Shown: positions 6,000 through 59,839 of the stretch, one piece after another | How the letters are laid out: each line of letters opens with the position of its first letter | Position numbering within the stretch: the first letter of the stretch is position 1 | From: Fluviicola sp. XM-24bin1 | GTDB taxonomy: Bacteria; Bacteroidota; Bacteroidia; Flavobacteriales_D; Crocinitomicaceae | Direction of reading: 5' to 3' | DNA length: 64,000 nucleotides | NCBI GenBank assembly: GCA_003149635.1 | Contig: QCWI01000002.1 | Location: forward strand, 211,188-275,187 | Notes under the pieces: generated by a model | Databases searched by the model: none | Told to the model about the DNA's origin: nothing | Seen by the model: only the letters and a program-made list of their open reading frames with translations | Made by a program: the position numbers and the translations under genes

Positions 6000-6973
6000 T
6001 TGTACCATAGCACCTTCTGGGTGTTTTCTGCACTCTATATTTTCGATTATCTCGTCGATGAATTTCCCATGCAGGAAGCAATTGGATATACGCTGTTTGA
6101 GACATTTATATTGATTGTCGGATTCTACGTCAATCTTTCGGTATTCATCCCCAAACTCTGGATGCGAGGCAAACCAGCGTTGTATTTCTTGAGCTTGATC
6201 GCTCTTGCAGCTGCGTCTTTCGGACTCTACTTCATCACCGGATTCGATAAACTGCTTCTGTCCGATTTAGTTCCCAGAGCAGCGGTTTCCTTTGTCCTGA
6301 ATTATGCCTTCTTCCTTTTCATCTCTTTCATGATATGGTATTTCGAAAAGTACTCTGAAGAACGCGTCAAAGCCTTGCAATTGGAGAAAGAAAAATTGCG
6401 ATTGGAGATCACCGTTTTAAAGTCTCAGATCAGTCCTCACTTCCTTTTCAATACTTTGAACAACATCTATTCGTTGGCAGTTCAAAAAGATGATAACACG
6501 CCTAAAATGCTGGCAGCTACCTCGGATATTCTGAGATATTATGTCAACAATGGCAATCAATCCTTTGTTACGTTGGAAGAGGAATTGAACATTTTACGCC
6601 AGTTCGTTGAAATTCAGAATAAGAGAAATTGAAAGGATCCATTTCGATGGATTTGCCAGAATCAGATCAGCTTAAAAGCAACCGTATTCCGCCTTTGGTG
6701 CTTTTGACTTTGTTGGAAAATGCGTTCAAGCATGGTGATATCGGTACAAATGAGAATGGATACGTTTCGTTAAAGATGGTCTCCTATGATAGCGAAATGT
6801 CCATAGCAATAGAAAACTCTTTCGGACATCGAAAGGAGGTTCCAGGCATCGGATTGGAAAACGTAAAAACGCAATTGGACATCCTTTTGGGCCATACATT
6901 TACGTGGTCGGTAAACGACAATCACCCGAAGTATGCCATAACTTTACAATGGAAATCGAATGAAAGTGAATGA
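6000..6973 (+). pseudogene. LytS/YehU-family sensor histidine kinase, split by a frameshift
   Basis: The 5' part (6000-6632, TTG start, 210 aa) has about four membrane segments and the His_kinase box around ISPHFLFNTLNNIYSLA (phospho-His about residue 146). The 3' part (TTG at 6629 to 6973) continues with KSNRIPPLVLLTLLENAFKHG, the ATP-binding N box, and the GIGLENVK glycine box. In the family these are one ~320-aa protein. The first frame stops in FVEIQNKRN at 6632, and the second frame picks up the next residues (LKGSISMDLPES) with nothing missing, so one lost base near AAGAGAAATTG explains the split. It could also be a two-piece kinase with coupled translation (4-nt overlap), but neither half would work alone. 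The LytTR regulator follows with a 14-nt overlap. Confidence 0.8.
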
Positions 6974-45926: not shown

Positions 45927-48499
45927 AGGGTTCCTGCTACAACAAATACTTTCCTTCCGACAAAAATCAGTCCACCTTGAACATCAAAGGCTTCAAAGAT
46001 GCCAACGTATGGCCCAATGGATGCTTTGGTTCCGTTGTCCGTTACCCCCTGCCATGAGAGTGTTCCTGTGGTGGAAAGCAATTCGTTATCAATAACTGTG
46101 GCTACTTTTCTACCGCGATCGTCGTACACCGTGAAAGTTCCAACGTAACCCGGTGCGTTCATTTCGTAATTGATCTGCAATACGTCCTCAAAACCGTCAT
46201 TGTCCGGTGAGATAGTTTCGCTCGTATAACTGAAAGTTCCATTGCTCAGAGCAGGATAGAATTGGGAATTTTCGCCTCCAGGAGTTCCAAATCCAACATT
46301 TTCAGCCGCCGTATGCCAGTTGTTCTGATCATTAGAAGATGCGTTTGGATCGATACGCTCCAAGGACTTTCCATCATCGTCGTCCATCAGTTGGAAGTGC
46401 CAATCGTCTAGATACGAAACGGCATCAATTACTTGATTTCCGTTGATCAAATACACCGTTCCTTCATCATTACTGTAGGTAGGTAAATCGCTTTGAACAA
46501 ATCGACCGATTACCGCAGCCGGATATTGCTGTTGTACCTGAGTTGAATCTTCTGTGATGACAACATATTCGCCTGGGAACAGCAAAAAGTTCGTTTCTAT
46601 GATATCATTATTACTAATGGTATCGTTAGCGAGATTGGCCAATTCCAGTCCGTTCACATCAAGCAACTTGTCGGAATTGTTGTACAGTTCGACGTAATCG
46701 TATCCGCCTGTTACTGGGTTGAAAAGAATTTCATTGATGATTAAATCCCCGGTTTCGATAATCGCAGGAAGCGCAAAAATGGCATTAAGATTGGCCGAAT
46801 TTGACCAACAATCCGCGACGTTTTGCAACTCAATTTGATACACCTGAGAAGTTGCGAGGTTTTCTTGAAACTGTAACGTCATCATCGATGGATACGCCTC
46901 AATCACATAGTTATTCTGGATCGTTAGCGTCGGATTGATGGTAATGTTCGCATTCGATAATGACGTTGAATCCATCCCTTCTGAGAAATGTACTTCTAGG
47001 AAGTTAGGCGCCAAAGCAACGGTTTGAGCAATGGTTGGAGCATCAACATCTGGAGAGAGATCGTAAATCGAATTTTGAGCTCCTGGCGTTCCTCCACTAG
47101 CATCATTACTCGCTGCCCAATCATCTATATCAGAACACGGATCTTGTGGATTGATGCGCTCAATGGAATATCCACCTCCGTCTTTTGTGTCGTCTTTATA
47201 CCAGTCGTCGGTGTAAACAATGGAATCGATTGCAACGCCTAAATCGCTAGTCAACACGATATGATCTCCCGCATTGTTCAAGTTCGGAAAACTGGTCACA
47301 CCGACTGTCGCAAGAGCGAATGAATCTACATTTGTAGTTGAGGTCAAAATCAAATATTCTCCGGGTAATAACCATGCATCTTGTACAGTTCCATCGCCAG
47401 TTTCATCACCTAATTGCCACGATTGGACATTGAAGATTTTACTGCTTCGGTTGTACACCTCAACGAACTCAGCATCGGGCATTCCTACCACAGGCGTTGG
47501 ATCACAAACAAACTCATTAATTACCACATCTCCCCAAACAGGAATTTCAGCAATCAGATACGCAAAATTCTCATCCTGACTTGTGAGCGAGTTTCCTTCC
47601 TGATCCTCCACATTCGTAACCGTCATAGTGTAGTTGGTTCCGTTTGTTAACGTCCCTGCAATGTCCAAATGAACCAATGCTGGATTCACACCGTCCAAGG
47701 TTGCAGTTGTAATTGCTGAGCCATTCGGAGCGTATGAATAATTGGAAGTCGTTTCAGCCGTTACCTGATCCACCGCTTCATCGAAAAGAACATCAATTTG
47801 GTTGGCGCTTATTGCTGTCACCGAAGAAACCGTAGGTGGTGTCACATCAATAATTTCATCTCCAACATACACGTCGTCGTAAAAGAAATTATCTGCGTTG
47901 CTCATCGTGTACTCACTGAAAAATCCGAAATGCGTACCTGACAAGCTCAAAGGTTCGGTTCCCGTTGCAGCCAATGCATAAGATGTTCCTCCGGTATCAT
48001 CCAAATACAATTCCCACATTCCTGCATTGTCGCGCACGACGCGTACGCCCATCTGAAAACTAGAAGCTATTTGACCTATTGTTCCGGCACAAATTTCAAC
48101 ATCTAAACCTCCCTGAACGATAAAAAGTCGCACGGCATCCGTTGAACCGGCTTCACCAAATTGGAGATAATATCCGTCGGGATCTGTAGTCAAATCTGCC
48201 GATGAAGCCGAAAGGTACACCCGTCCGTAATTACTCCCTGAAGGAGAAAAAGATTGACGCACATGAAACCTCCATTCTTTATTGTCCAGATTGGCAAGAA
48301 GATGCGGCGTCGATAAGTACGATGTCGCAGCAATGGTGTTATTCAATTGCAACTCAAATGATGCATTTACAGTGTAATCTGCGTCGGTTCCCGACCAAGT
48401 AGGATTGGTCGTGAAATTACCATCGTTAAAATCGTCTGTTAATTGTGAATATAAAGTGTAATGTGTTAAAATAAACACAATAACGAAAAACTGCTTCAT
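45923..48499 (-). CDS. Secreted protein with two lamin-tail domains and C-terminal FlgD-like Ig domain
   Basis: About 858 aa from ATG 48499 (MKQFFVIVFILTHYTLYS signal peptide); the frame runs back to 48685 but that reaches into the divergent asd gene. Order: a jelly-roll (laminin-like) domain to ~220, an SbsA-like Ig (VTAISANQIDVLFDEAVDQV), lamin-tail domain 1 (GDVVINEFVCDPTPVVG), a second Ig-like, lamin-tail domain 2 (GDLIINEILFNPVTGGYDYV), and a C-terminal gliding/FlgD-like domain (ISPDNDGFEDVLQINYEMNA). The C-terminus lacks a clear type A T9SS motif and may act as a type B signal. Likely surface adhesin or nuclease-accessory protein; no catalytic motif. Stop overlaps the next start by 4 nt. 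Confidence 0.82.
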   Translation of the reverse strand: MKQFFVIVFILTHYTLYSQLTDDFNDGNFTTNPTWSGTDADYTVNASFELQLNNTIAATSYLSTPHLLANLDNKEWRFHVRQSFSPSGSNYGRVYLSASSADLTTDPDGYYLQFGEAGSTDAVRLFIVQGGLDVEICAGTIGQIASSFQMGVRVVRDNAGMWELYLDDTGGTSYALAATGTEPLSLSGTHFGFFSEYTMSNADNFFYDDVYVGDEIIDVTPPTVSSVTAISANQIDVLFDEAVDQVTAETTSNYSYAPNGSAITTATLDGVNPALVHLDIAGTLTNGTNYTMTVTNVEDQEGNSLTSQDENFAYLIAEIPVWGDVVINEFVCDPTPVVGMPDAEFVEVYNRSSKIFNVQSWQLGDETGDGTVQDAWLLPGEYLILTSTTNVDSFALATVGVTSFPNLNNAGDHIVLTSDLGVAIDSIVYTDDWYKDDTKDGGGYSIERINPQDPCSDIDDWAASNDASGGTPGAQNSIYDLSPDVDAPTIAQTVALAPNFLEVHFSEGMDSTSLSNANITINPTLTIQNNYVIEAYPSMMTLQFQENLATSQVYQIELQNVADCWSNSANLNAIFALPAIIETGDLIINEILFNPVTGGYDYVELYNNSDKLLDVNGLELANLANDTISNNDIIETNFLLFPGEYVVITEDSTQVQQQYPAAVIGRFVQSDLPTYSNDEGTVYLINGNQVIDAVSYLDDWHFQLMDDDDGKSLERIDPNASSNDQNNWHTAAENVGFGTPGGENSQFYPALSNGTFSYTSETISPDNDGFEDVLQINYEMNAPGYVGTFTVYDDRGRKVATVIDNELLSTTGTLSWQGVTDNGTKASIGPYVGIFEAFDVQGGLIFVGRKVFVVAGTL

Positions 48500-58055: not shown

Positions 58056-58057
58056 CT

Positions 58058-58171
58058 GTCACCCCTCTTTGATTCTCCCTCAAGGGGAGAGTAAATTATC
58101 CCTCCTCCCGTGAGGGAGGTGACGTTGATACAAAGAGCATTGAGCGTAGCCTGAGGCTCTCGAAGGCTACC
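58058..58171. repeat. Intergenic composite repeat downstream of dxr
   Basis: GTCACCCCTC with a matching GAGGGAGGTGAC about 50 nt on, plus CCCTCAAGGGGAGAG, then CATTGAGCGTAGCC (58138-58151, cf. 2221) and GTAGCC-TGAGGCTCTCGAA-GGCTAC (58146-58170, cf. 13237 and 29535). Three dispersed repeat families are joined here. Confidence 0.6.
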
Positions 58172-58211
58172 CTCCCCAATCCCAACACTTCACTCAATAA
58201 AAACCACACTC

Positions 58212-58267
58212 AACTAACTTTTTAGTTAATTAACTATGTTTTTAGTTTGTCAACTAAAGAATTAGTT
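58212..58267 (+). promoter_or_regulatory. Array of TTAGTT/AACTAA half-sites, probable BlaI operators
   Basis: AACTAA-CTTT-TTAGTT (58212-58227), the palindrome TAGTTAATTAACTA (58223-58236), TTTAGTT-TGTC-AACTAAA (58241-58258), and one more TTAGTT (58262-58267). The last sites overlap or sit between the -33 and -7 elements of the blaI promoter. Each pair has the dyad form expected for a dimeric BlaI/MecI winged-helix repressor. Confidence 0.7.
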
Positions 58268-58276
58268 ATATGTTTG
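58246..58276 (+). promoter_or_regulatory. Bacteroidetes-type promoter of blaI-blaR1
   Basis: TTTG (58246-58249), 19 nt, then TATGTTTG (58269-58276): both consensus elements at the canonical spacing, 19 nt before the blaI ATG. The TTTG is inside an operator dyad, so repressor binding would block the polymerase. Confidence 0.7.
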
Positions 58277-58295
58277 TGATGTAATCTTAATTACT

Positions 58296-58652
58296 ATGCA
58301 AGAATTAACAAAAGCAGAAGCGCAGGTGATGCAATACCTCTGGGAATTGAAGGAGGGCTTTGTAAAAGACATCGTGGAGAAGTTTCCCGATCCAAAACCT
58401 GCCTATAATACAGTATCTACCATCATTCGAATTTTGGAAAAGAAAGAAGTTGTAGGTCACAAGGCGTACGGTAGATCTTTCATGTATTACCCTCTTATTA
58501 CCAAAGAGAGTTACACGAAGAACACAACCAATCAACTTGTAGATAATTACTTCTCTGGCTCGGTGGAGAATCTGGTTTCCTTCTTCGTTAAAGAAAAAGA
58601 AATCAGCGTAGATGAGCTGGAAAAAATCCTAAACGAAATCAAAAAGTCATGA
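58296..58652 (+). CDS. BlaI/MecI family transcriptional repressor
   Basis: 118 aa winged-helix regulator. LTKAEAQVMQYLWELKEGFV and KPAYNTVSTIIRILEKKEVV hold the DNA-binding helices; the C-terminal half has FMYYPLITKESY, the dimerisation region of the family. It represses its own operon until the sensor BlaR1 cleaves or signals it. Its ATG lies 19 nt after a full promoter with operator dyads. Stop overlaps the blaR1 ATG by 4 nt. In Bacteroidota such pairs often serve cell-envelope or copper/stress responses rather than beta-lactam resistance; no beta-lactamase gene is nearby. Confidence 0.93.
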   Translation: MQELTKAEAQVMQYLWELKEGFVKDIVEKFPDPKPAYNTVSTIIRILEKKEVVGHKAYGRSFMYYPLITKESYTKNTTNQLVDNYFSGSVENLVSFFVKEKEISVDELEKILNEIKKS

Positions 58653-59839
58653 CATTATTACAATTTATCCTCATTCAAGCGAACTTGGTTGTATTGTTTG
58701 GATTGTACAAATGGTTGGCTGCTAAAAATGGTCAATATAACTTCAATCGTTGGTATCTGATTTTAGGGCCTGCAGTAGCGATCGCATTACCATTCATGAT
58801 CTTTGAAAGATCCACGGAAACTACCTTGTCGGTATTGCTTCCTGCTGTTGAAGTTCTAAAAGATGCCCAAGCTTCCAATGCAACGGTAATCGACTGGTCG
58901 CAAATTGCTATTATCGTCGGATCTGCCTTAGTTTTTGGAATTTTTGCCTATTCCCTTTGGAAACTCATCGGTGCGAAACGCGCCACGTATGTGGAAGAAT
59001 TCCGAGGAAAGGAAGTGTACATGTTATCCTCAGAAGATGGAACCACACACTCACTTTTCAATCGTATTTACTTGCATCCAACGCACGAAAATTTCCGAGA
59101 AATTGTGTTAGAACACGAATACGCACATTGCAAAGGTCGTCACTCATGGGATTTAGTCCTGATGGCATTTTATAAAGCTCTTTTTTGGTACAATCCTGCG
59201 ATTTACCGCTGGGGAAAAGAGATGCAATTGAATCACGAATACTTGGCTGATGCACACGTGCTCTCGCTAGGCGTTCCACCCAAAACATATGGAGCAACCT
59301 TGCTCGCTCTTAATTTTTCACACAGTGGAGGACATCTCGTGCACGCGTTCAATCAACCGTCGTCGCTCCGCAAAAGAATCGTTCACTTTAAACATCAAAA
59401 TAAATTCAACATGAAACATCTATTGCTTATCCCAGCAGTTGCCGCAATGGCATTCGCGACTACGTCAATGGTTTCTTCCAACCCAACAAAGCAGACTACT
59501 GCTCCGACTATTCAAACTGTGGAAGTTACTGGTGACGAGGACGTAACCCAAGCCGAATACCCCGGTGGAAAAGAAGGGTTGATGAACTACCTAATGACTA
59601 ATCTTACCTATCCAAAACAATTGGAGAAAGAAGGTGCAGAAGGAAAAGTTTTCGTGAAGTTTACCATCGCAAAAGACGGTCAGGTGAAAGACGTAAACGT
59701 TGTTAAATCATCTGGATTCGAAGCGTTAGATGCGGAAGCCGTTCGCGTGATTAACAACATGCAAAGCTGGAAGCCTGCTACGAAGGACGGAAAGAAAGTA
59801 GCTTCAGAAATGACACTTCCAATCGTATTCAAGCTGTAG
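58649..59839 (+). CDS. BlaR1-type M56 peptidase with C-terminal TonB domain
   Basis: 396 aa. N-terminal membrane segments, then the M56 zinc site HEYAHCKGRHSWD (HExxH, about residue 155), KALFWYNPAIYRWGKEMQLN with the third ligand near NHEYLADAHVLSLG. After a further membrane segment (MKHLLLIPAVAAMAFATT) comes a TonB C-terminal domain: YPGGKEGLMNYLMTN, then GKVFVKFTIAKDGQVKDVNV and EAVRVINNMQSWKPA. The sensor cleaves the repressor BlaI. The TonB domain replaces the penicillin-binding sensor of classical BlaR1, so the ligand is not a beta-lactam in the usual manner. Confidence 0.92.
   Translation: MTLLQFILIQANLVVLFGLYKWLAAKNGQYNFNRWYLILGPAVAIALPFMIFERSTETTLSVLLPAVEVLKDAQASNATVIDWSQIAIIVGSALVFGIFAYSLWKLIGAKRATYVEEFRGKEVYMLSSEDGTTHSLFNRIYLHPTHENFREIVLEHEYAHCKGRHSWDLVLMAFYKALFWYNPAIYRWGKEMQLNHEYLADAHVLSLGVPPKTYGATLLALNFSHSGGHLVHAFNQPSSLRKRIVHFKHQNKFNMKHLLLIPAVAAMAFATTSMVSSNPTKQTTAPTIQTVEVTGDEDVTQAEYPGGKEGLMNYLMTNLTYPKQLEKEGAEGKVFVKFTIAKDGQVKDVNVVKSSGFEALDAEAVRVINNMQSWKPATKDGKKVASEMTLPIVFKL

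Follow-up and report, generated by a model that had tools for sequence, protein, structure and literature searches.

The window, by which we mean the whole 64,000-nucleotide stretch of DNA analysed here, from a bacterium of the Bacteroidota, carries two plus-strand genes that overlap by 4 bp. The first (58296..58652) encodes a 118-aa repressor of the BlaI/MecI family, whose Penicillinase_R domain (PF03965) scored 117.6 bits (4.9e-34) compared to a curated cut-off of 22.6; TIGR02698, the model used to compare it with the CopY copper repressors, matched the same protein with 55.5 bits, below its cut-off of 121.95. The second (58649..59839) encodes a BlaR1-like protein of 396 aa, in which an M56 metallopeptidase domain (Peptidase_M56, PF05569; 47.3 bits, cut-off 31) with HEYAH at residues 156-160 is joined to a C-terminal TonB domain (TonB_C, PF03544; 84.8 bits, residues 318-396). 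In the 3.63-Mb genome, these are the sole BlaI gene and the sole M56 gene above the cut-off, a second M56 match lying below it, and TonB_C is found at five further places besides the M56-TonB gene.

Upstream of blaI lie three perfect AACTA-N6-TAGTT dyads, none assigned to a strand, that start at 58212, 58232 and 58252 and thus repeat in an exact 20-bp phase: a distal dyad AACTAACTTTTTAGTT (58212..58227), a middle dyad AACTATGTTTTTAGTT (58232..58247), and a proximal dyad AACTAAAGAATTAGTT (58252..58267). They are interlaced with a plus-strand promoter, whose -33 and -7 elements we name after the Bacteroidota promoter consensus. The last bases of the middle dyad and the two that follow it make up the -33 element TTTG (58246..58249), and the proximal dyad occupies most of the 19-bp spacer that separates this element from the -7 element TATGTTTG (TAnnTTTG; 58269..58276). 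The sequence-only reading of this DNA had described four dyads or half-sites within 56 bp, overlapping a TTTG-N19-TAnnTTTG promoter. The 56 bp and the overlap with the promoter stand as claimed; the count does not, as there are three complete dyads, that is, six half-sites. When the 240 bp from 58056 to 58295 were shuffled with dinucleotide composition preserved, at least one exact dyad arose in 22 of 20,000 shuffles and two or more in none. Within the 64-kb window, exact dyads occurred in this array alone, with one one-mismatch site at 47324.

Conservation of the dyads and of the promoter geometry

A BlaI match was present in 32 of 60 genomes, the window's own included, and absent from 28, some of which are incomplete drafts. 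We fetched 30 of the 36 loci with BlaI matches, again counting the window's own, and dropped one contig fragment (L049). All 29 remaining loci, the window's among them, had at least one upstream dyad with no more than one mismatch. A pair of dyads spaced by 20 bp was found in 26 of them, again counting the window's locus, and three dyads in phase in nine. L022-L026, all near relatives, have the distal dyad at the same place, although that of L025 carries one mismatch.

A second sample, the named set, comprised the best 80 of 590 relatives, and therefore close ones. Their labels are mostly Bacteroidota, with three Chlorobiota, one Aminicenantes, and one archaeal MAG. The loci on short contigs labelled Methanoregulaceae (L182) and Aminicenantes (L172) have Bacteroidota-like blaI genes (55-56% identity), and the labels probably reflect binning contamination. 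One locus with 78 bp of upstream sequence (L147) was dropped, leaving 79 of the best 80 with a full 150 bp upstream. An exact dyad was present in 59 of these and a dyad with up to one mismatch in 68; pairs spaced by 20 bp occurred in 36 and pairs spaced by 18 bp in 16. For the same four categories, the means over shuffles of the 79 loci were 0.085, 2.15, 0, and 0, and 754 random stretches of the named loci gave 0, 10, 2, and 0. A search for gapped 5-mer palindromes that presupposed no motif ranked AACTA with a gap of 6 first, in 59 of these loci compared to 4 for the best shuffle. Judged from the sequence comparisons, the array at the blaI promoter is real.

A dyad was missing from the 150 bp upstream in 11 of the 79 loci drawn from the best 80 of 590. 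Three of these had several exact dyads further upstream, one had dyads of the variant form GACTA-N6-TAGTC, two had a single distant dyad with one mismatch, and in five we found no clear operator. At L134, where blaI starts at 6001, such variant dyads precede a -7 box in the last 90 bp before the gene, and they match the GACTAT half-site of Clostridium thermocellum BlaI_1845.

The placement of the -7 box relative to the dyad is nearly fixed. Among the 38 named loci (best 80 of 590) with both elements, the box starts 17 bp (20 loci) or 15 bp (11 loci) from the start of the dyad in 31. In the window it lies 17 bp after the start of the proximal dyad, as in those 20 named loci, and in the window and its relatives together the offset was 17, 16, or 15 in 13, 2, and 6 cases. 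Offset 15 was paired with 18-bp dyad spacing in 10 of 11 named loci (best 80 of 590). By contrast, all 6 offset-15 loci among the window's relatives have 20-bp spacing, indicating no strict coupling between spacing and offset. With the two samples in disagreement, we dropped the idea of a tight link. The promoter design that emerges is a -33 element at a dyad junction, a spacer filled by a dyad, and a -7 box at a near-fixed offset.

Reach of the predicted operator

It had been suggested from the sequence that the same dyad at other promoters would disclose a regulon. The search led back essentially to the blaI operon alone. In the window's own genome (3.63 Mb), there was no second tandem pair at up to three mismatches: the two overlapping pairs recovered both lie in the array, and a reversed control pattern also gave two. 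Dyads with up to one mismatch were not enriched in this genome (112 places compared to 453 for the reversed control). The combined dyad-plus-promoter unit, allowed two mismatches, matched blaI at zero and three other places at two, and the reversed control had 8 matches. Six exact dyads occur genome-wide: besides those of the array, which account for three, two fall within ORFs and one lies between two type IX secretion (T9SS) genes.

This last dyad, a single exact copy at L007:1501-1516 (G000:C6:168058), lies in the gap between a gldK-like and a gldL-like gene. We searched 12 genomes for it and fetched 11 loci; one could not be read by motif, leaving 10 relatives. The dyad was kept in the two nearest sister species and absent, at up to two mismatches, from the 8 others. 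Accordingly, we rejected it as a regulon member.

Across a phylum sample, tandem arrays at 20-bp spacing, with no more than one mismatch allowed, were found in 35 of 296 genomes, at 38 places, and the reversed control in 2 of 296. Since a blaI gene follows directly at 35 of the 38 places, the regulon visible by strict patterns appears to be the blaI operon itself; these patterns are stringent, and single or degenerate dyads would escape them. Of 295 class genomes, 4 had arrays with 18-bp spacing. Two of these arrays lie directly in front of blaI, a third is about 500 bp away from it on the upstream side, and the fourth is in a coding region. An exact dyad with the promoter was found once each in 16 of the 60 relatives' genomes, although the reversed control was less clean here, with 7 matches in 5 genomes, and all 16 sites are within about 165 bp of blaI, the one in G058 being oppositely oriented. 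Similarly, the dyad followed at +17 by TAnnTTTG occurred once in each of 32 of 395 class genomes (reversed control, 3 matches), and 25 of the 30 sites fetched lie 5-122 bp before blaI. The other five fetched sites have no blaI gene directly downstream; four look like background and one precedes an ABC permease gene in G184.

In that genome (L089:7042-12150), the operator is followed by a MacB/FtsX-type permease gene, then blaI, then an M56 gene with Amidase_3 and Plug domains. In G180, the tandem array and blaI are separated by a small lipoprotein-like gene. The tandem array at G176:C1:1976531 lies between HU-like and rng-like genes and is a near-perfect self-complementary palindrome, so we took it for a terminator-like hairpin and rejected it as an operator.

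Among the closest described parallels are two C. thermocellum repressors, BlaI_1845 and BlaI_0696, for which BlaR1 genes in the blaI operon, paired inverted repeats, half-sites near AACTA, and small autoregulatory regulons are reported in the part of the study available to us (PMC8457756). Both repressors, whose motifs are GACTAT and GTCTAT, have EMSA support, although the effect was more modest for the second, and the regulons comprise one operon for BlaI_1845 and three for BlaI_0696 (PMC8457756, same part). However, that system belongs to another phylum and has two dyads rather than three, and the same part of the report describes neither a TonB domain nor a link to a TTTG/TAnnTTTG promoter (PMC8457756). 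The CopR-CopY copper repressors belong to the same superfamily, and, in the portion of the source consulted, recognize a 16-bp operator, RNYKACANNYGTMRNY, often present as two operators with a modal spacing of 26 bases (PMC7253601). The outer ten bases of RNYKACANNYGTMRNY fit AACTA-N6-TAGTT. Unlike the system described here, these repressors rely on metal-responsive Cys-X-Cys motifs instead of control by a protease (PMC7253601, same portion); the 118-aa BlaI has no C-terminal Cys-X-Cys motif and no cysteine at all. One further hit (PMC12578637) was rejected as an M56/BlaI paper because the match was a catalogue number. Chu, Peacock and Vogel reportedly noted in 2007, from database analysis, TonB proteins with a MecR1-like N-terminal extension, the same domain fusion as in the window's protein, and are said to have described no operator or regulon. 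In the literature covered, mostly non-subscription, we found no functional study of the TonB-fused form or of this operator-promoter arrangement. Many Bacteroidota carry this regulator, and the array, with the promoter built around it, offers an operator code for it that can be put to the test.

Protease, predicted cleavage sites and sensor domain

In staphylococci, a BlaI-type switch turns on penicillin resistance. AlphaFold models of the two window proteins had mean pLDDT values of 85 and 83, with low confidence (57-62) in the C-terminal part of BlaI, residues 81-118. The BlaI model matched MecI (1sd7; Z 14.4, rmsd 2.6, 113 aligned) and the MecI-operator complex (2d45; Z 13.4), and winged helices from outside the family followed from Z 11.0 down. 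Residues 2-238 of the M56-TonB model matched BlaR1 (8exs; Z 15.6, rmsd 4.7, 219 aligned), the next protease being ZMPSTE24 at Z 6.3, and residues 299-396 matched the C-terminal domain of TonB (6i97; Z 10.7, rmsd 1.5, 88 aligned). The whole-chain Foldseek TM-score to BlaR1 was low (0.38 to 0.43) because the sensor domains differ. The penicillin-binding, class D beta-lactamase-like C-terminal sensor is absent from the M56-TonB protein, in which residues 318-396 are TonB_C; Pfam reported no transpeptidase or beta-lactamase domain in it, and the NCBIfam BlaR1 models matched its protease part alone, far below cut-off.

We compared catalytic residues in 73 M56 proteins, the window's and 72 relatives, selected for HExxH from the best 80 of 590. 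HExxH is present in 75 of these 80 named loci, 3 of the 75 being cut by contig ends, and the 8 that lack a complete ORF with HExxH were left out. H156, E157, H160, E197, D201, Y214, and R243 are the same in all 73 proteins, HExxH having been the selection criterion, and align in that order to BlaR1 H201, E202, H205, E242, D246, Tyr261, and Arg294. F234, which corresponds to the autocleavage P1' residue Phe284 of BlaR1, is kept in 69 of the 73. The roles of these active-site and cleavage residues come from the accessible part of a BlaR1 study, which names P4 Leu, P2 His, and P1' Phe as determinants of autocleavage specificity (PMC9834060). The window's M56 protein has all three: its predicted autocleavage loop reads LVHA/F compared to LSHS/F in S. 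aureus BlaR1, where the slash marks the site of cleavage. At P2, Asn is found in 51 and His in 6 of the 73 proteins from the best 80 of 590. In BlaI, Phe97 aligns with the P1' residue Phe102 of MecI/BlaI and is kept in 103 of 109 sequences, and Ser95 is invariant in 109 of 109.

The S. aureus BlaI-BlaR1/MecI-MecR1 systems, as far as the part of the study drawn on describes them (PMC9834060), share with the window's pair the repressor and membrane-protease folds, the catalytic residues checked, the autocleavage pattern, the P1' Phe, and the pairing in an operon. They differ in having a penicillin-binding sensor where TonB is found here, the half-site TACA rather than AACTA, and Asn rather than Phe at the P1 position of BlaI (PMC9834060, same part). 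No resistance gene is visible under the operator in the window's genome.

The TonB domain is present in 64 of the 73 M56 proteins (window plus closest named relatives, from the best 80 of 590), indicating that, among the closest relatives, fusion to TonB is the rule and no oddity. All examined BlaR1 active-site residues are kept in these proteins. The locus is a warning that annotations such as "BlaR1" or "beta-lactam sensor" in these genomes may mislead. The same 73 proteins carried CarbopepD_reg_2 and CarboxypepD_reg (8 each), Plug (5), TonB_2 (4), M48 and eCIS_core (2 each), and ExbD, SPOR, Big_1, and CooC_C (1 each), and all these counts may overlap. The commonest of the domains are modules known from TonB-dependent transport, and so point to the outer membrane.

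TonB energy transducers have a membrane helix with a conserved His for ExbB/ExbD. In an alignment of the 73 M56 proteins with one another (best 80 of 590), His predominates in no column of helix 255-275, and residue 257, His in the window's protein, is mostly Tyr, Ile, or Leu. Without a conserved His in this last helix, coupling to ExbB/ExbD seems unlikely, and the alignment does not support ExbB/ExbD drive of the M56-TonB protein.

The helix that precedes the TonB domain has an aligned Cys at its end in 36 of the 73 proteins from the best 80 of 590, and 23 of these fit a loose lipobox. The column, at residue 273 of the window's protein, which has no Cys there, is near the signal peptidase site of S. 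aureus BlaR1. The sensor of the Cys-bearing relatives may be shed as a lipoprotein.

Proposed switch and its possible signals

The reading we prefer, and consider likely, is an autorepressed proteolytic switch of the BlaI-BlaR1 type whose signal is probably envelope-related. By homology, BlaI dimers would bind the three 16-bp dyads in their 20-bp phase and exclude RNA polymerase from the blaI promoter, a steric effect that we infer from the geometry, with the middle dyad overlapping the -33 element and the proximal dyad in the spacer. The M56-TonB protein would sit in the inner membrane, with the zinc protease in the cytoplasm and the TonB domain on the periplasmic side. When an event in the periplasm acts on the TonB domain, the autocleavage loop would no longer block the protease site, and the freed protease would cut BlaI before Phe97, inducing the operon. 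The sequence-only reading had proposed an autoregulated unit with a well-readable operator, and a sensor that pairs an M56 zinc site with a TonB domain in place of the penicillin-binding one. Phylogenetic footprinting of the predicted operator, the conserved catalytic and cleavage-site residues, and the fold matches to BlaR1, TonB, and MecI support this reading.

As to the signal, our best guess is the state of the outer membrane or envelope, read via the TonB fold. Contact with the TonB boxes of transporters is a more specific guess that we hold only tentatively, and contact with peptidoglycan is one we regard as unlikely though worth keeping in mind. Consistent with a link between iron and TonB, a BlaI gene beside an M56 gene in Porphyromonas gingivalis was under-expressed in excess hemin (LFC -1.74), a weak hint given that 429 of 1,992 genes changed, in the part of the report available (PMC10470040). 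A fuller version of the switch would make blaI-M56-TonB, across Bacteroidota, a widespread one-operon sensor of the machinery for outer-membrane transport, in which contact with or pull by TonB-box transporters releases the protease and BlaI is removed. With the operon as the sole output, the TonB-like protease is what would rise, so that the supply of a TonB-type component would follow demand; relatives with the lipobox-like Cys, about half of them, would also shed the sensor as a lipoprotein. We consider this complete scenario rather improbable.

Among the alternatives, the one that survives best, although we think it unlikely, is a sensor of cell-wall stress (beta-lactam or peptidoglycan) like classical BlaR1, with the TonB domain simply taking the place of the penicillin-binding one and reading peptidoglycan or muropeptides. 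TonB domains can bind peptidoglycan. The Amidase_3 domain in the blaI-linked M56 protein of G184 (L089:9958-12150) and the SPOR domain in one of the 73 M56 proteins (best 80 of 590) point to the cell wall, and in Bacillus licheniformis a peptidoglycan dipeptide acts on BlaI itself, as stated in the part of that study consulted (PMC3305447). However, a transpeptidase or beta-lactamase domain was found neither in the M56-TonB protein nor among the 12 families of the 73 M56 proteins, and the tandem operator occurs nowhere else in the genome, so no resistance gene is visibly controlled.

We judge it distinctly improbable that the TonB domain is a mere structural or dimerisation module, with the M56 protein a steady antirepressor and the array keeping expression of the operon constant, low, and damped against noise. 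Such an arrangement would suit an operator whose sole visible target is its own operon and a protein whose C-terminal domains differ among M56 relatives. Yet TonB_C is kept in most of the M56 proteins (64 of 73, best 80 of 590) and resembles in fold the TonB domains seen bound to transporters (Z 7.5 to 10.7), which speaks for a ligand. Finally, that the dyads belong to another regulator and lie beside blaI by chance or shared ancestry is very improbable: binding by BlaI is a prediction, but the dyad tracks blaI across the phylum, since 35 of the 38 tandem arrays, and 25 of the 30 dyad-plus-promoter units fetched, lie directly upstream of it. Part of the half-site also recurs in the motifs of the C. 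thermocellum BlaI proteins, ACTA in GACTAT and CTA in GTCTAT (PMC8457756, part available).

The signal of the TonB-fused BlaR1 of our preferred switch becomes a simple question for a reporter experiment. In several named loci, a gene for a secreted-looking protein follows blaI-M56 (among them L118:7881-9131, L126:7746-9044, L187:7917-9185), and the three scanned with Pfam encode TPR proteins, which are candidates for a periplasmic partner or an output of blaI-M56. In five loci (L115, L121, L130, L150, and L159), an apparent second M56-like gene follows the first, confirmed with Pfam for L121.
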